Source of the DNA: an uncultured Cocleimonas sp.
GTDB lineage: Bacteria; Pseudomonadota; Gammaproteobacteria; Thiotrichales; Thiotrichaceae
Assembly (NCBI GenBank): GCA_937929875.1
Contig: CALFUP010000161.1
Location: 1-43,355, forward strand
Length of the DNA: 43,355 bases
Direction: 5' to 3'
Shown here: positions 12,070 through 40,921 of the stretch, in pieces
How positions within the stretch are numbered: the stretch's first letter is position 1
Layout: every line of letters starts with the position of its first letter
The notes under the pieces: model-generated
The model's database searches: none
Told to the model about the DNA's origin: nothing
The model's input: only the letters and a program-made list of their open reading frames with translations
Position numbers and translations under genes: made by a program

Positions 12070-13074
12070 GTGAGCAATAAAAACAACGGTAACACGCTAA
12101 ATCACAACTACCCAATCGAACAAGCTTTTAAATTTCCGTTAATTATTACCGCAATATTAGTTTTGTTACCTGGATTAGCACTCTACTGGTTTATTGGAGA
12201 TGCTCAAAGTACCCCACGAAGCCTTAAACTCTTTGTAGGCAACTGGATTTCACCCATAATATTATGGTTTTTTTGTGCCAGCTTTTTCCACTTATGGCTC
12301 AAACGTTCACAATTAAAAAAAGAAATCGATGCTAGCGAATTGCTTTCAAATAAATTAATTCCAAACATGTTTCATGGAGGTATCGACCAATATACTGAAA
12401 ACGAGCTAGAAGCTGAACTACAAACCACTAACTCTCAAAATAACATATCAAAAGAAAACCTTTTACACTCAAGATTATCGTTATTTCTAAATCATGCCGA
12501 CAATGACATTGACGAAACATTCGCAATTAAAGAACGTGAATACATGAAAGGCTCCTTTTCATTATCACGCTTTATGGTTTGGGCAATACCAATCATGGGA
12601 TTCATTGGAACTGTTTGGGGGATTAGTAATGGTATCTCACATTTCTCTGATGCGATGACGAGTACTAACTCTGTCACTGATGTATCGGCAATGCTTAAAG
12701 AAAGTTTACCTTTGGTGACCAGCTCATTAGCGACTGCATTTGATACCACCTTACTGGCTTTATTACTCAGTATTCCATTAATGATGCTAATGCTTTCTTT
12801 AGAGAAGGATGAAGAAGCTTATTTAATTGATCTTGACGAGAAATGGTTTCATGACATTAAACCTTTATTGGTAAAAAGCACACAGCAAAGCCTTTCACAA
12901 AATACGATCCAATCGGCTGAAGGCATTGTCGCTGTTGCAGATAACTCACAAGCCGTAGCCAACGAAATCACTTTACTGAGTACTCAAATCAAAGCGCTTC
13001 AAGAAACTATGGAAGATCTATACGAAACGGTTTTCACTTCCAAACTAAATGAGCGTTCAAATAAAAAGCCCTAA
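12070..13074 (+). CDS. MotA/TolQ/ExbB-like proton-channel subunit
   Basis: The product resembles the channel (A) subunit of 5:2-type ion-driven motors. Four membrane helices are predicted: about 22-41, 58-76, 168-186 and 214-242, with a cytoplasmic loop of about 90 residues between the second and third as in TolQ/ExbB/MotA. The third helix carries GFIGTVWGISNGI, close to the family G-x-x-GTVWG pattern. The fourth carries TSSLATAFDTTLLALLLSIP, matching the Thr/Ala-rich pore helix of TolQ/ExbB. The C-terminus (about 290-330) is likely helical. It begins with GTG preceded by GGAG. It is the first gene of a five-gene operon with two TolR-like partners, which supports the family call. The process it drives is unknown. 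Confidence 0.82.
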   Translation: MSNKNNGNTLNHNYPIEQAFKFPLIITAILVLLPGLALYWFIGDAQSTPRSLKLFVGNWISPIILWFFCASFFHLWLKRSQLKKEIDASELLSNKLIPNMFHGGIDQYTENELEAELQTTNSQNNISKENLLHSRLSLFLNHADNDIDETFAIKEREYMKGSFSLSRFMVWAIPIMGFIGTVWGISNGISHFSDAMTSTNSVTDVSAMLKESLPLVTSSLATAFDTTLLALLLSIPLMMLMLSLEKDEEAYLIDLDEKWFHDIKPLLVKSTQQSLSQNTIQSAEGIVAVADNSQAVANEITLLSTQIKALQETMEDLYETVFTSKLNERSNKKP

Positions 13075-13150: not shown

Positions 13151-13789
13151 ATGGCTATGTCTCGCGCCACGCGTTACGCACGCTATAATCAAGGAGAAAA
13201 ACTTGAGATTAGTTTATTTCCGTTTCTTAGTATTTTCCTATGCGTCATGGGGGTATTGTCTTTTATCAATGTTTTGAATAGCTTTAGTACACCGCAGAAA
13301 ATTGAATTAACGGCTCAGTTAGAACAAGGCTACAAAGTTGCTTATCAAATTTTTAGTTTGCCCGATGGTATTATCAGCGTTCCTCCTACGAAACACCTTC
13401 TTAAACTAAAAACTGAAGTAGACGAAAGTGATGCATTAGTCATTGAAGATATTTTAGATAGGCGTTCTCAATCAATGCAACGCTTAGAATCACACCAAGG
13501 CTCTGTCATGAACCTCGCGTTACAACCTGATATGGACTCTATTTTAGAAACCATGTTAGACATTCGAACCCTCAATGAAATTGCCTTAAAAGCAAACTAT
13601 CTTTACGAGGAGTTTTTGTTATTTGGAATTTATCCAAATGGTGGTTCTGCCTATCAAAAAATTCGCGATATTATGAGCTTTACCCCAGACGCAACCTCTA
13701 TCAGTGTTGGTCTTGAGCCTTTAGACAGCAACTGGACCTTAAACCTAAATCCAAATTTAGGTCCCAATAAAGATGGAACTGTTGAATAG
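13151..13789 (+). CDS. TolR/ExbD-like single-span protein with Ser in place of the channel Asp
   Basis: A 212-residue bitopic protein. After a basic N-terminus comes a membrane segment (about 20-42) reading LEISLFPFLSIFLCVMGVL. This aligns by eye with the TolR/ExbD pattern (E-I-x-x-x-P-x-L-D-V), but Ser27 stands where the proton-carrying Asp would be. The rest (about 45-212) is predicted periplasmic, with no OmpA-like peptidoglycan-binding motif. The family is not one I can name. It follows the channel gene by 76 bases and precedes the next ORF by 5 bases. ATG at 13151 or 13157 could be the start; a GGAG at 13133-13136 is a little far from either. I infer a B-type stator subunit working with the 13795 product. 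Confidence 0.6.
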   Translation: MAMSRATRYARYNQGEKLEISLFPFLSIFLCVMGVLSFINVLNSFSTPQKIELTAQLEQGYKVAYQIFSLPDGIISVPPTKHLLKLKTEVDESDALVIEDILDRRSQSMQRLESHQGSVMNLALQPDMDSILETMLDIRTLNEIALKANYLYEEFLLFGIYPNGGSAYQKIRDIMSFTPDATSISVGLEPLDSNWTLNLNPNLGPNKDGTVE

Positions 13790-13794
13790 CTATC

Positions 13795-14424
13795 ATGAAG
13801 AATTTAATCAGCCTAGATTCTCTAACCGACATTGTCTCTAATTCAGTGGGAATTTTGATCATTTTTGCTGTAATAAATCTCATCCATGATAATAACAAAA
13901 CCTATCAATTAGAAATTCCAATCGAGCATCGCACTGAACTTAGCCCTGCATTTTTCATGATAAAGAATGATAGTATTTTAGAAATGGATACTGATGTGCT
14001 GTTCTCTAATGCCACGGTTCAAGCAACAAGCGGAGCAGCTATTAATGAACGCTTATTTACTTTAGATTATTTTGACGTACTCGGTAAAATTGATGAAGGT
14101 AAAGGTGTTTCTTTTTTCGCCAGAGATACTGCTACATGGCCTAAGTTTCAGGAATTAGGCAAGGGCAACTCAAAATTAACTACAGCTTTGAATAAACTCG
14201 ATGCAAATAAGCAATTTGCCTTCTTTTTTGTCTATGATAGTAATGACGGTGAGGCTTCGGGTAATGGCTTTGAAGCTTTTCGTGAAGCACGCGAATACCT
14301 AAAAACACGCCGAATTAAAACTGGATGGCGACCAGTAAATGACGAAGCTCCTGCAAACATTTGCCAAGACCATTTTGGTAAACGTTGTGATTTTCTCCCT
14401 TCTTATTTAGGGGATATTCGATGA
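13795..14424 (+). CDS. Second TolR/ExbD-like single-span protein, channel Asp retained
   Basis: A 209-residue bitopic protein with a very short cytoplasmic N-terminus. Its membrane helix (about 13-31) is preceded by SLDSLTDIVSNSVGILIIF. Asp12 falls at the position of the essential TolR/ExbD/MotB Asp, with another acidic residue at Asp8. The periplasmic part ends with a helical run FEAFREAREYLKTRRIKTGW and two Cys near the C-terminus (ICQDHFGKRC). It lies 5 bases after the Ser-bearing partner and overlaps the following TPR gene by 4 bases (ATGA). The two proteins are similar in size and topology but clearly diverged in sequence. I infer a heteromeric B-subunit pair. No named family recognised. 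Confidence 0.6.
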   Translation: MKNLISLDSLTDIVSNSVGILIIFAVINLIHDNNKTYQLEIPIEHRTELSPAFFMIKNDSILEMDTDVLFSNATVQATSGAAINERLFTLDYFDVLGKIDEGKGVSFFARDTATWPKFQELGKGNSKLTTALNKLDANKQFAFFFVYDSNDGEASGNGFEAFREAREYLKTRRIKTGWRPVNDEAPANICQDHFGKRCDFLPSYLGDIR

Positions 14425-16031
14425 GTAAGAAGCTACCCTTTATTCAACTCAAAAAAGCTTGGGGTTTAGACGAAAATACCTCAATCGAAACGCTTTTAAT
14501 CGAAGCTCAGAAAAGAATAAAAGCTGACCCTAAAAATCCAGAGCTTAGCTTCAATACCGCTGAAATATTACGTCATTTAGACCGCAACAAAGAAGCTGCC
14601 CAACGCTATAAAGAAGCGGTAAGAAAAACTGATGCTAAAACCGAAGCTCGCTCAATTGAGTTACACCAAAGAGTAAAAAAACAACGAAAAGAGACTCGAA
14701 ATAAATTTTTGCTGATTACTTTTGCACCATTAGCCATTGCATTCTTTTTAGGTTTATTTACGTGGCAAAAACTCACCGAACCAGAGAAATTACCCGCTGA
14801 TAGCGATCCTGAAAAATTTGCCTTTACCCAATGGTTAGCCAAACAGCAAATGGCAGAAGTAATGACCACTTTGCAACAACAGAATCCTGAATTGAGTTTT
14901 GACTTCAGTTCGTCATCAGCCAGTGCTCAGTCACCTATGGAATTTATGCAGTCTTTAATGCAAACAGACGCCATCGAAAAAATGCGCCGTGATAATCAAA
15001 ATACTAAAAACTCTCAAAGTGAAGAAGGCGCAGGTCGACCTGCATTTCAATGTACTAAAGAACCTGCAGTAATGTGTGCAGCCAAAGATATTCCCAATGC
15101 ACCTGGTGATTCTCGAGAAGAAGTTGTTTTATTAATGGAAGCCTATGATTCTATTTTAAACAGCGAAAAAGACTGTACCAAAATAGAACAATCCATTGAG
15201 AGCATAGGCGAACAACTACAATGGAGAAAGTCTGAACGTCGAATTAAGGCTAACCTAGAAGATTTAGCAGTCGAATGCTATTACCGTCAAAAAAACCTCG
15301 AAAAAACGGTCGAGCATGCACGTAAATTGCAATGTACCGGGGATGAAAGTTACATCAACAGTGTCTACTGGTATTTGACCTCCATTAATCATCGTGTCGG
15401 TGACAAAACAAAAGCACTCAGTTCTTATCAATGTTTTCAAGAGGCAACTGACTACATTACTCAACATGACTTCAGTCCCGCTTATGTGGCCTCAAGACAT
15501 CGCGAATCAGGTGCACTCGCTTGGTTGTATTTTGATGACCTAGAAGGCGCAACATCATCATTAATAAAAGGTAGAAAGATTTTAAAAGAGATACCAGAAA
15601 AATCTGCTGGAATGTTGCAAGTTATCTCCGAAATTAATTTGGATCTAATGGAAACTTACGTCACTGCTAATATTGACAGAGATACATTTGATGAGCTTTT
15701 AGAAGAGATAAATTCTAGCGGCTTACTCACTGACGGCTACAAACAGATAAAAGATACACTTGCTGCAATTTATCACATGCAAAACTCAAATAATGCTGAC
15801 GCACTCATACCATTAGCAAACATCAGTAGTCGTTTTAGCTTAATGCCGGAATTCATCTGTGGCTGGGATTGGAGCGGTTTTGATCGTGGCTTAGACGAAT
15901 CAATTACTAACGATAGTATTCGTGAACAAGCGAGAACATTGGTTAATGCTACAAACTGTTATATCCCTCAAACCATGCAAACACGTATTCAAAATGTAAA
16001 TAAAGTTGGGAAGTGGTTAAAGTCACAATGA
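14421..16031 (+). CDS. Membrane-anchored TPR protein with Cys-rich periplasmic part
   Basis: A 536-residue protein. Residues about 25-75 look like a tetratricopeptide pair (PKNPELSFNTAEILRHLDRN...EAAQRYKEAV) on the cytoplasmic side. A membrane helix follows (96-115), then a Gln/Ser-rich linker and a long helical C-terminal region (about 200-530) suggestive of further TPR/SEL-like repeats. All eight cysteines lie after the membrane helix and none before it, as expected for disulfides in the periplasm. It is translationally coupled to the second TolR-like gene by a 4-base overlap, so it likely belongs to the same complex, perhaps as a scaffold spanning both faces of the membrane. No enzymatic motif found. 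Confidence 0.6.
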   Translation: MSKKLPFIQLKKAWGLDENTSIETLLIEAQKRIKADPKNPELSFNTAEILRHLDRNKEAAQRYKEAVRKTDAKTEARSIELHQRVKKQRKETRNKFLLITFAPLAIAFFLGLFTWQKLTEPEKLPADSDPEKFAFTQWLAKQQMAEVMTTLQQQNPELSFDFSSSSASAQSPMEFMQSLMQTDAIEKMRRDNQNTKNSQSEEGAGRPAFQCTKEPAVMCAAKDIPNAPGDSREEVVLLMEAYDSILNSEKDCTKIEQSIESIGEQLQWRKSERRIKANLEDLAVECYYRQKNLEKTVEHARKLQCTGDESYINSVYWYLTSINHRVGDKTKALSSYQCFQEATDYITQHDFSPAYVASRHRESGALAWLYFDDLEGATSSLIKGRKILKEIPEKSAGMLQVISEINLDLMETYVTANIDRDTFDELLEEINSSGLLTDGYKQIKDTLAAIYHMQNSNNADALIPLANISSRFSLMPEFICGWDWSGFDRGLDESITNDSIREQARTLVNATNCYIPQTMQTRIQNVNKVGKWLKSQ

Positions 16032-16080
16032 TAAGTCTCATAAACACTTTAATATACAGGTTGATTAAAACACGAACCTC

Positions 16081-16099
16081 CAAAAAGTGGGGGGGTGTC
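16081..16099 (+). repeat. Dispersed 19-bp repeat, copy C
   Basis: An exact consensus match with R=G. It lies in the 183-base gap between the TPR gene and the peptidase-like gene. GTCATTTTATT (16097-16107) can pair imperfectly, 9 of 11 positions, with AATACAAAGAC (16126-16136). Confidence 0.85.
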
Positions 16100-16139
16100 A
16101 TTTTATTCCTCTCAAAGCGAAGCCCAATACAAAGACCTC

Positions 16140-16158
16140 TAAAAAGTGGGGGGGTGTC
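16140..16158 (+). repeat. Dispersed 19-bp repeat, copy D
   Basis: Differs from the consensus only at the first base (T for C). It is a direct repeat of copy C, 59 bases downstream, with ACCTC shared just upstream of both. GTGTCTTTAT can pair with ATAAAACAC about 25 bases further on, with one bulge. Confidence 0.85.
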
Positions 16159-16214
16159 TTTATATAGCTTAAAACGGTTAATAAAACACAATCTAAACCA
16201 AGCCGAGGTAATCT

Positions 16215-18080
16215 GTGTTAAATAAAATTATCCTAGCTGCAATTAATCGGGCAAATACTTCAAAGCCCGATGCGATGCAAGCTGATGCTTTCGAAAACCC
16301 AACAAGCTACACAGGATATATTTATCCGCTTCGATATTTACTAGCACTTCGTTACTTAAAAACAAAACAAAAGACCTTGGCGCACTTTCGTTACAAAAAA
16401 GAATATCCGATAGCAGCGAATGATTTCACAAATGCGTTAATTGAACGTTTATCAAACAAACAGTCATCAAATCAAATCAAACACAACGCTGAATTAACTA
16501 AGCCTAATTTCCCTTGGTTGGGCAATGTGTTTACGGCAAAAATTATCTATCCTCTACTTTTTGTTTCATTGGCTGGCGTTTTATTTAGCGTTAACCAATG
16601 GCATCAACAGAAAAAAATAGAAAGTGTATTGGCTAATTACTTGCCTTATTTTTCAGACTTATTACATCGTAAACTTCTGTTAAAACACAATGATGCAAAT
16701 ACTAATTTAGTGGAAGCTACTGAGTTATCAATCAATAAAACAGAAAATAAAATCCTAAGCGAGCTTCCGGAAAAAAATGGTGTGAGAGACATCATGCAAG
16801 CACAATTAACAAAACTGAAAGACCCAAATACCGATAGCGAAAGCATCATGTTTGGCTTTAAAGAAGTAAATACGCTCTTTGACAAAGAACAGCAACCTTA
16901 TTACTTGTCGCCAAAGTCGTTTACTATGCCATGCTCATCTTTGATTGATGCACCCGTTGAGCAAATGATGATGCTCAAAGAACTCGAATCTTTAATGAGC
17001 AATAACAATCCAGAATTGTGCCGCACTACCATGATGACGACTTACAAGGTTGATGATCGAACTCAGCTTTTTTATAAGGATAAACATGTCACAAAAAGTA
17101 ATGAGGTAGAACTGCCGTTATTTCATGTGCGACGAATCGATAAAGTACCTGCAGTAGATGGAGCACTTGGCTTAACTTTTAAAGAAAGAGGCATCGGTTC
17201 GATTATTCTTGTGGATAGAATTAAAAACTTTGCAAGAGAGTCGATCTTACCCGCCCTCACCTTTCAAGGCAGAAATTATATCATTCCCTATTGGATGCAA
17301 GGTCATTATGAAATAGAAGAAGCCGTAACCAAAGGCTATAAAAAAGACATTAACCAGATTTACCCTGATAAAACGGAACAAAAAAAAGTAAAAACCTTAG
17401 TTAAGCAGTTGATCAAAGATAAAAACCGCATGCAAAATTCTAAAATGGAACAGACCATGCAACGCACCAACAGTAATAACGATCAAAACATTTTTGGTAA
17501 TGGCTTCGATGCGATTAGTGTTTTATTAGGGAATAGTAAAAAAGATAAAGGCAATATTAAAGAGTTTGTAAGACCCCTATTTGATGAAGCTGATTCACAA
17601 ACTCTAAAAAAACTGGATGAGGCTTTGTACCCCAGTATTGAATACCATGAGGCTTATCATCAAATTGATAAAAAAGATTGGCTTCCGCCCAATTGGTTAA
17701 CATCAGTTTTTAAAGGAAAACTAGATGAAAATGCCACCGAGCATACTTTAGAAGAGCTTGGTGCTTACTTATCTCAATTAGCAAATACCGAGCAAGGCCA
17801 GAATATATGGCTAAGTAAATTATTAATATTTTCATTAAACCCAATGACAAAAGGACAAGCAGAATATTACGCTTCCAGTATTATCTTTAATGCGATGGAA
17901 GCACTACATTTAGAAGAAGCGATCGAAGCAAATTATATTGCAACAGTTGACGACAAAACTCGTATTTTTAAAGCATTACTCAGCAAAGACAGCGATGAAA
18001 TAAGCAGAATGGCTCGTCAAGCCTATCAAATATTGTTCCAGAGAGATGTACCAAACTTAGCAAACCATTCTCTTAACTAA
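16215..18080 (+). CDS. Membrane-anchored protein with HEAYH zinc-peptidase motif
   Basis: A 621-residue protein I cannot assign to a named family. Residues 1-105 are predicted cytoplasmic, a membrane helix spans about 109-127, and about 490 residues follow on the periplasmic side. HEAYH (His478, Glu479, His482) matches the HExxH zinc-metallopeptidase signature. Glu513/Glu514, in TLEELGAYLSQL 31-32 residues later, could supply the third ligand as in gluzincins. Two Cys near 238 and 276 could form a disulfide. The start is a GTG at 16215 with GAGGT upstream. It shares strand and theme with the four preceding genes, although 183 bases with two repeats intervene. Peptidase activity is an inference from one motif. 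Confidence 0.6.
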   Translation: MLNKIILAAINRANTSKPDAMQADAFENPTSYTGYIYPLRYLLALRYLKTKQKTLAHFRYKKEYPIAANDFTNALIERLSNKQSSNQIKHNAELTKPNFPWLGNVFTAKIIYPLLFVSLAGVLFSVNQWHQQKKIESVLANYLPYFSDLLHRKLLLKHNDANTNLVEATELSINKTENKILSELPEKNGVRDIMQAQLTKLKDPNTDSESIMFGFKEVNTLFDKEQQPYYLSPKSFTMPCSSLIDAPVEQMMMLKELESLMSNNNPELCRTTMMTTYKVDDRTQLFYKDKHVTKSNEVELPLFHVRRIDKVPAVDGALGLTFKERGIGSIILVDRIKNFARESILPALTFQGRNYIIPYWMQGHYEIEEAVTKGYKKDINQIYPDKTEQKKVKTLVKQLIKDKNRMQNSKMEQTMQRTNSNNDQNIFGNGFDAISVLLGNSKKDKGNIKEFVRPLFDEADSQTLKKLDEALYPSIEYHEAYHQIDKKDWLPPNWLTSVFKGKLDENATEHTLEELGAYLSQLANTEQGQNIWLSKLLIFSLNPMTKGQAEYYASSIIFNAMEALHLEEAIEANYIATVDDKTRIFKALLSKDSDEISRMARQAYQILFQRDVPNLANHSLN

Positions 18081-18256: not shown

Positions 18257-19627
18257 ATGATCGAAAGCCGCTATAAAATTGAATACGTCTTCCCTAATGA
18301 AGACCAAGCTAAAAAGAAAGCCTCTCCGTTCAGAGTATTATGGTATTTACTCCTTATCCCGCTCATAGGAATGGTTGTAGCAGCTATTACTTATGATTTT
18401 TCTTTCAAAGACTTATCTCGTGATTCACTTGTATTAATTGAAAAAGCCAAGGTGCAGGTTTTCAATCTTGGAGAGCAAAAAGTATCTATAGATTTAAAGG
18501 AAACAGCTGAGAAACAGGCAATAGCACCCATAGAAAAACCAATTTCAAAAGTTGCAGAAGAAAAAACAGCTCCAATTATTGCCGTTGCTCCCATAGAAAA
18601 AATAGAACGATATAAATCAAAAATCTCTCAATTAAGTTCTCAACAAGAAGCGCAACTAAAATCCATCCAAGAACAAATTGAAAAAAATTCAGCATTTTCA
18701 AAAAAACTTAATTCAATATCGGAACAGTTAGTTCTTGAACAAATAAAAAATCAGCAGTTGAACTCTTTGGTCACAGAACAAGAAAAAGACAGATTAGAGT
18801 TAGAAGAACAATACAATAAGGCTCTAGAAAAGACTGATATTGCCTCGATTCAAAGTACTAATAAAGCCTCAAAAAATCAGATATCTACTAAAGAAACTAT
18901 AGAACAAGTGCCTACTGAGGTTAACAAGGAAGAGATTAACGTAACTAAAGTTCAGGAGAATGAAGATGCTGTTCTAGTAACGACAAAAGAAATTACTCAG
19001 ACAGCAGAGATAGTAGATCAAAGCGAGAAATCTGAAACTGATAAAATCATCGAAGCTATGACTACAATAGCTAAAGATACCACTAGTGAAACAGAAAAAA
19101 ACGTATCGACAGTTAATAAAACTAGTGAAAAGTTAGATACACAATCAAAAAACAAAGAAATTGCTAACCCAAAAAAAGAAGAAGCTAATAATAATGTTAC
19201 CGAACTAGTGAAAGTAAAAGAAATCATTAAAACTCCCAAAACTGAAGAAGTAACGGAGTTATCTGAAACGGATAAAATTATTAAAGCAATGAGCACGACC
19301 ACAAAAGTTAACACTAGCGAGAAACTCGCCGAAGTTGATAAAACCAAGTCTAAAACAACAGAGCTTAAATCAAGCATTAATTCAATTACTGACAATGAAG
19401 ACACCGATGTCAGCTCAACTGAATATGCAACAAAAGTGACTGAAACTAACACTACCGAGATAAGCAATACTTCTAAAAATGATATTGCAGAATCAGAGAA
19501 AGTTATAAAAACAACAGAAGCTGAAAAAAAAGAAGTATCTTCAGTGGATGCGATTATAGCTGCTATGCAGGAAACTAAAACAACGAGTAGTTCGGATGAT
19601 CAGAGTAAGACTGTCGATTCAAAATAA
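18257..19627 (+). CDS. Membrane-anchored coiled-coil protein with three short C-terminal repeats
   Basis: A 456-residue protein of unknown function. One membrane helix lies at about 27-45 with a basic cytoplasmic side before it. A coiled coil (about 115-185, Gln/Glu/Lys/Leu-rich) follows, then a long Lys/Glu/Thr/Ser-rich, probably disordered tail. A short motif of the form S-x-x-D-x-I-I-x-A-M occurs three times, at about residues 259, 336 and 429 (SETDKIIEAMT, SETDKIIKAMS, SSVDAIIAAMQ), the last close to the C-terminus. No good ribosome-binding site precedes the ATG, which sits in very AT-rich sequence. It follows the motor-like operon on the same strand and converges on ccmI. Membership in the motor-like system is possible but unproven. 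Confidence 0.55.
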   Translation: MIESRYKIEYVFPNEDQAKKKASPFRVLWYLLLIPLIGMVVAAITYDFSFKDLSRDSLVLIEKAKVQVFNLGEQKVSIDLKETAEKQAIAPIEKPISKVAEEKTAPIIAVAPIEKIERYKSKISQLSSQQEAQLKSIQEQIEKNSAFSKKLNSISEQLVLEQIKNQQLNSLVTEQEKDRLELEEQYNKALEKTDIASIQSTNKASKNQISTKETIEQVPTEVNKEEINVTKVQENEDAVLVTTKEITQTAEIVDQSEKSETDKIIEAMTTIAKDTTSETEKNVSTVNKTSEKLDTQSKNKEIANPKKEEANNNVTELVKVKEIIKTPKTEEVTELSETDKIIKAMSTTTKVNTSEKLAEVDKTKSKTTELKSSINSITDNEDTDVSSTEYATKVTETNTTEISNTSKNDIAESEKVIKTTEAEKKEVSSVDAIIAAMQETKTTSSSDDQSKTVDSK

Positions 19628-34984: not shown

Positions 34985-35002
34985 GACACCCCCCTACTTT
35001 TT
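34985..35002 (-). repeat. Dispersed repeat, copy G
   Basis: An exact minus-strand match over 18 bases (AAAAAGTAGGGGGGTGTC) in the convergent gap between rluB and the DUF2069 gene. Confidence 0.85.
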
Positions 35003-35058
35003 AAAGGTTTTTCTCTTTAGATTTTATTCATATAACTAAAAAGAAGCTCAGCAGTCAC

Positions 35059-40870: not shown

Positions 40871-40889
40871 GACACCCCCCTACTTTTTG
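40871..40889 (-). repeat. Dispersed 19-bp repeat, copy J
   Basis: An exact minus-strand match to the consensus with R=A, 23 bases after the Smr gene stop and before the terminator, in a convergent gap. Confidence 0.85.
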
Positions 40890-40921
40890 TAGTGAATTCA
40901 CGGCATACATCAATTAAAAAT

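Follow-up and report, generated by a model that had tools for sequence, protein, structure and literature searches.

A HExxH protein with a gluzincin-like motif encoded with MotA/ExbB-type motor genes in Cocleimonas: a candidate periplasmic metallopeptidase

Background

Motors of the MotA/ExbB type drive flagella, import, maintenance of the envelope and gliding. In the Tol-Pal system, the motor is accompanied by a TPR partner (CpoB) and an OmpA-like lipoprotein (Pal), and Zorya systems consist of ZorA, ZorB and further Zor proteins. To our knowledge Tol-Pal contains no peptidase, and we know of no MotA/ExbB-type motor that is paired with one. In one motor study, AglQ and AglS, two B subunits of the same motor, are each predicted to carry a conserved Asp (PMC9389320); the word 'peptidase' is absent from the main text of this paper and of a second one (PMC12505986). 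A motor-peptidase pairing was not recognised in those parts of the open-licence literature that were searched, which does not imply its absence from print.

Two families with HExxH-like metal sites are also relevant here. In peptidases of family M49, which includes DPP III, the motif HExxGH or HExxH is followed 22-55 residues on by EExR(K)AE(D); the zinc ligands of DPP III include Glu508 of EECRAE in the rat enzyme and Glu476 of EExR(K)AE(D) in the Bacteroides enzyme. The M49 enzymes characterised so far consist of two domains, and DPP III is described as a cytosolic protein. PolE, a member of DUF6421, is described as an iron- and pterin-dependent oxidase with an HExxHxnE site; DUF6421 is reported to be DPP III-like in fold and to comprise biosynthetic enzymes that have an amino acid as substrate.

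Here we analyse a stretch of 43,355 nucleotides from an uncultured Cocleimonas sp. (contig CALFUP010000161.1; hereafter the window), in which genes for a motor of this type are followed by a gene for a protein with an HEAYH motif, referred to below as HEX.

Results and discussion

Gene order and predicted topology

Five successive genes on the forward strand of the window encode proteins that are all predicted to lie in the membrane, four of them spanning it once. The first (12070..13074) encodes a MotA/TolQ/ExbB-type channel subunit (Pfam PF01618, 31.5 bits against a cut-off of 22.9). It is followed by genes for two single-TM subunits, B1 (13151..13789) and B2 (13795..14424), for a TPR protein of 536 residues with one TM helix at residues 96-114 (14421..16031), whose TPR matches fall below Pfam's cut-off, and for HEX, a membrane-anchored, gluzincin-like protein of 621 residues (16215..18080, delimited from the ORF list and the homologue alignment). 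The HEX gene has a GTG start, which in the alignment matches the MLN... starts of its homologues. From the channel gene through B1, B2, TPR and HEX to a further ORF at 18257, the intergenic distances are 76, 5, -4, 183 and 176 bases. An initial annotation had placed HEX at the end of a motor-like operon; this is roughly right, but a gap of 183 bp precedes HEX and the further ORF lies 176 bp downstream. That ORF (18257..19627, forward strand) encodes a single-TM, low-complexity protein of 456 residues, rich in K, E, T and S, extended, and TolA- or TonB-like in make-up only; it is poorly conserved and present in all four Cocleimonas loci, and its membership in the system is uncertain. The flanking genes lie on the opposite strand: upstream, those of an isoleucyl-tRNA synthetase and a PhyH-like protein, and downstream, genes for cytochrome c maturation, the first and last of these names being recognised from sequence.

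B2 is ExbD/TolR/MotB-like in position and layout. Its Asp8 and Asp12, located where the TM helix starts, are both invariant in 14 of 14 aligned rows; it also has Cys190 and Cys198. B1 carries the segment FPFLSIFL and has no Asp in its TM helix; Ser27, found in all 14 rows, appears from our reading of the sequences to occupy the place at which ExbD-like proteins carry Asp. Neither B1 nor B2 gave a Pfam ExbD match. The two subunits differ, only B2 having a TM Asp, and an axle of such asymmetry would be unusual for this class of motor. The locus appears to be a motor operon of known class with a new, peptidase-like partner. Zorya was considered as an identity for the locus and rejected: the channel protein gave only a partial match to ZorA (E = 3.8e-7, 27.2 bits) and the other five proteins had none at E <= 1.

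The 183-bp gap between the TPR and HEX genes holds two terminator-like repeats (16067-16106 and 16126-16165). This intergenic repeat, with core AAAAAGTrGGGGGGTGTC, also occurs at 34985-35007 and 40871-40893 (minus strand), so that there are four copies in the window against none in 100 shuffles; in its strict form it is found in the whole genome only at the two copies before HEX. An Rfam search gave no match.

The membrane anchor ascribed to HEX at first reading agrees with the single TM helix that hydropathy predicts at residues 105-123 (16527..16583). Charge around this helix (0 before, +1 after) is uninformative for orientation; the TPR protein, with +6 before its TM helix and -2 after it, fits an N-in arrangement. 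HEX has two Cys residues, Cys240 and Cys269 (16932..17021), that are invariant in 22 of 22 sequences and probably form a periplasmic disulfide, and Cys residues that are invariant in 14 of 14 rows also follow the TM helices of the TPR protein (eight) and B2 (two). The Cys residues of the three proteins, those of the TPR protein and B2 lying after the TM helix, fit disulfides in the periplasm. From its single TM helix and invariant Cys pair, we infer that HEX is oriented N-in, C-out, with its C-terminal part in the periplasm.

Conservation of the putative metal site

We aligned HEX sequences from 22 genomes in 23 rows (one genome is represented by two fragments, and one fragment row lacks residues 478-513). 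The lowest pairwise identity among them is 36%. It had been proposed from the window alone that HEAYH (478-482), together with Glu513 or Glu514, fits the gluzincin pattern HExxH...E, and the homologues bear this out: residues H478 to I484 (among them H478, E479 and H482) and E513 are identical in all 22 covering sequences, and residues E514-L519 in all 23. In HEX, 116 of the 621 positions are invariant, and invariant runs of at least five residues occur at four places only, namely ALGLT (317-321), PALTF (346-350), HEAYHQI (478-484; 17646..17666) and EELGAYL (513-519; 17751..17771). The last two are the longest. HEAYHQI lies in a putative zinc-binding helix (458-482 in the model), and EELGAYL is a putative third-ligand motif (model helix 505-524).

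Because an HExxH motif was found in 325 of 20,000 shuffles of HEX (1.6%), the motif alone is weak evidence, and it is conservation that carries the argument. We read HEX as a candidate peptidase because its longest invariant runs correspond to the two halves of the site and because it retains Glu479, which serves as catalytic base in enzymes of this kind. Glu514 lies 31 residues from His482, and Glu513 lies 30. Since the ligand Glu of DPP III (Glu508 in rat, Glu476 in Bacteroides) is presumably the second of its Glu pair, Glu514 is favoured over Glu513 as the third ligand of HEX. The most conserved block of the protein is found elsewhere, at residues 296-376 (17100..17342), which include the ALGLT and PALTF runs and have 44% invariant columns. 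That this block is more conserved than the one around HEAYH counts against the peptidase reading, as do the absence of a family match or a significant fold match and the weak structure models described below. We consider it very unlikely that the motif is a structural coincidence, in which conserved helices of an all-alpha scaffold bind no metal; the frequency of HExxH in shuffles, the weak models and the missing family match would suit such a coincidence, but in 621 positions the two longest invariant runs coincide with the two halves of the site and are spaced much as in gluzincins. The metal-site motif of HEX is, as far as sequence goes, well supported, while activity and coupling to a motor are hypotheses.

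Family assignment and structure models

HEX gave no Pfam match over cut-off, no NCBIfam match and no PADLOC match, and a sequence search against solved structures gave no match below E = 0.75. Membership in the DPP III family (M49) was rejected on several counts. PF03571 matched neither the window protein nor 14 members of its family at E <= 1. An hhalign comparison of the HEX profile with six DPP III-like ORFs gave E values of 0.29-0.56, outside the motif (L133, one of seven loci considered, gave no ORF with both motifs and was dropped from this set, and L135 and L136, second pieces of the same genes, were excluded). Finally, HEX has EELGAYL in all covering sequences where M49 has EExR(K)AE(D). 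Membership in DUF6421, the family of PolE, was likewise rejected: its pattern is HE/DxxHx(21-23)E, against a spacing in HEX of 31 to Glu514 or 30 to Glu513, and DUF6421 in Pfam gave no match to HEX at E <= 1.

Structures were modelled with an alignment of five sequences as input. The AlphaFold2 model of full-length HEX is weak (mean pLDDT 49.6); residues 440-621 modelled alone reached a mean of 62.4, but with the HEAYH helix less confident than in the full-length model. Ten-residue means of pLDDT in the latter are 60-92 over residues 471-610, except for 50 at 541-550, and both HEAYH and EELGAYL fall within predicted helices of this best-modelled part. A Foldseek search with the full model returned nothing at E <= 0.001 (best E = 1.0). 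As a second look at Foldseek's list we used structural alignment with VIA-align 2. For the first HEX model, this gave Z scores of 5.2-6.0 for DPP III entries (5na7, 5na6, 5na8, 5yfb and 5yfd) and 6.2-6.5 for PolE entries (9j33, 9j30, 9j2e and 9j2r), the matches spanning residues of about 460-611 and extending further upstream in untrimmed rows; above these rank unrelated helical proteins that match a different region of HEX (best Z 7.5). With the second model, ranks 4-7 of 998 chains go to PolE 9j3g and DPP III 5na7, 5na6 and 5na8 (Z 4.1-4.6), behind three Cmr complex matches. The aligned range of 5na7 starts at 434 against 464 in HEX, which if ungapped would place His478 on one of that enzyme's zinc ligands, His448. 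For 9j33 (191 against 464), the register would be three off PolE's motif, as judged from E203; both registers are read from aligned ranges only. It is suggestive that both models retrieve DPP III and PolE, two families with HExxH-like metal sites; however, these matches need to be interpreted cautiously, as Z values of 4-7 can be within the chance range for helical models.

The presence of PolE among the same fold matches as DPP III would also suit a site that binds metal but does not cut peptides, in which case HEX might be a PolE-like oxidase or hydroxylase, or its site might be structural or regulatory. We regard this as quite unlikely: the spacing of 21-23 in DUF6421 differs from the 31 residues that separate His482 from Glu514 in HEX, and a reduced iron/pterin enzyme would be unexpected in the periplasm.

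Distribution and linkage to the motor genes

Among 63 genomes of the window's bacterial family, HEX is found in 22, TPR in 23, B2 in 27 and the channel gene in 30. The channel matches comprise 27 strong ones, in the same genomes as B2, a truncated one (G027) and two weak ones (G005 and G423). Named hosts of HEX are Cocleimonas flava DSM 24830 and three uncultured Cocleimonas. The motor genes are present in all 22 genomes with HEX, compared with five of the 41 others; HEX occurs in 22 of the 27 genomes with B2 and in none of the 36 without it (P = 1.5e-12 by Fisher test, which ignores shared ancestry). In the mostly motor-less genus g3, the sole genome with HEX is also the sole one with the motor (1 of 6).

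The TPR gene adjoins HEX in 21 of 22 genomes; the contig of the remaining one starts within HEX. In nine of the 22 the motor genes are contiguous with this pair, in the order MotA-B1-B2-TPR-HEX and in two genera; they lie apart from it or on other contigs in 11, also from two genera, and contig ends intervene in the remaining two. In the two-contig assembly of G022, about 9 kb separate the motor genes from the TPR-HEX pair on the same contig. We regard TPR and HEX as the core pair; the motor accompanies them in every HEX genome without always sharing their operon. The wording of the initial annotation, a peptidase physically linked to an ion motor, was too strong: the pair is apart from the motor in half of the HEX genomes. 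What the data do support is that HEX co-occurs with the motor genes.

We interpret HEX as a partner of the motor because TPR adjoins it so regularly, because the five-gene order recurs and because HEX occurs only with B2. Against this stand the 11 genomes in which the pair is not beside the motor, and three (G023, G406 and G407; 90, 58 and 84% complete) in which the motor is present and neither TPR nor HEX was found. These are among five B2-bearing genomes without HEX; in the other two (G034 and G410) a fragment of TPR is seen where a contig ends, and their lack of HEX is probably due to an unassembled operon. G005 was rejected as a case of clean HEX loss: it has a 26-residue MotA start at a contig end, and its operon may be unassembled.

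The same data bear on the possibility that HEX is a gluzincin-like peptidase working with TPR only, with the motor co-inherited through lifestyle and making no contact with it. The persistence of the pair where the motor lies elsewhere is in keeping with this, as is the neglect of shared ancestry in the co-occurrence statistics. The contiguous five-gene order in two genera and the lone HEX and motor genome of genus g3 argue against it, and we judge it somewhat unlikely.

Homologues of HEX beyond the family were sought in 369 class genomes and 299 phylum genomes (overlapping samples), each of which matched only the window's own genome, and in plasmids, where there were none. B1, searched with a narrow three-row profile, had no others in 398 phylum genomes (the samples overlap), and B2 had no others in 369 class genomes (overlapping samples) and none in plasmids. 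HEX is found in one bacterial family only, within the genomes sampled.

Several other genes were observed near these loci. A gene for a periplasmic rhodanese-like protein lies close to HEX or the motor in some genomes; it was dropped as a sixth partner, being present in 50 of the 63 family genomes, many of them without HEX. One genus has a lipoprotein-like gene directly 3' of HEX at five loci (L042:9891-10736, L044:4614-5495, L043, L045 and L054), and an OmpA domain (PF00691) was found in both of the two tested (L042 and L044). Just upstream of the TPR-HEX pair at L042 (2696-6070; one genus) are three genes in a row for what we take, from sequence, to be PilT/PilU-like ATPases. Another genus has, after MotA-B1-B2 and in the place of TPR and HEX, two small genes for single-TM, coiled-coil-like proteins (L120:10388-11521, L124:2584-3722 and L127:8502-9622). 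G001 has a second copy of the motor operon (L119:3444-6480), in which a short ORF separates the B1 gene from the channel gene and a TPR gene begins at the end of the contig.

Proposed function

With confidence that is about evenly balanced, we propose that HEX is a membrane-anchored, periplasmic, gluzincin-like metallopeptidase within an envelope system of five genes that includes a MotA/ExbB-type motor. In such a system, His478 and His482 would bind zinc, Glu479 would activate water, and Glu514 (less likely Glu513) would be the third ligand. The channel, with B1 and B2, would turn an ion gradient into movement. Most probably, TPR and HEX would then form the periplasmic effector of this ion-driven complex, in which HEX would cleave or mature some envelope or surface protein that is moved or exposed by the motor. 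A bolder version appears doubtful to us: that this is an envelope motor carrying its own periplasmic protease, that conformational work from a channel with the asymmetric B1/B2 axle reaches HEX through TPR, and that cutting is gated or powered by a proton or sodium gradient. Force-dependent cleavage by HEX, which had been suggested at the outset, is speculation. If the partnership is real, it would allow ion-gradient-driven proteolysis in the periplasm to be tested directly. HEX also represents a HExxH family that has yet to be named, its site clean and invariant, and Cocleimonas flava DSM 24830 is a named isolate that carries it.

Comparison with known systems

HEX resembles M49 peptidases in its HExxH followed by a Glu-Glu motif and in a weak fold match over the catalytic region of DPP III. 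M49 members with the pentapeptide HExxH exist, and four of the six DPP III-like ORFs have HEVAH...EEGKADI. Unlike M49, HEX lacks the R/K and E/D of the second motif, and in contrast to the cytosolic DPP III it is predicted to be membrane-anchored. With PolE it shares an HExxH...E pattern and a weak fold match to the models, and differs in the spacing given above. Like Tol-Pal, the locus combines motor genes with a TPR gene, and one genus adds a lipoprotein-like gene after HEX, with an OmpA domain in both of the two tested; the window itself has no OmpA-like neighbour. A likeness of layout is also seen with the 5:2 rotary motors (MotAB, ExbBD, TolQR and AglRQS), in which a MotA_ExbB channel domain is likewise followed by single-TM B-type genes. 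Two different B subunits stand beside the channel gene here, as AglQ and AglS do; unlike those, only B2 has an Asp, B1 having Ser27. Unlike these rotary motors, the operon described here adds a TPR protein and an HExxH protein.
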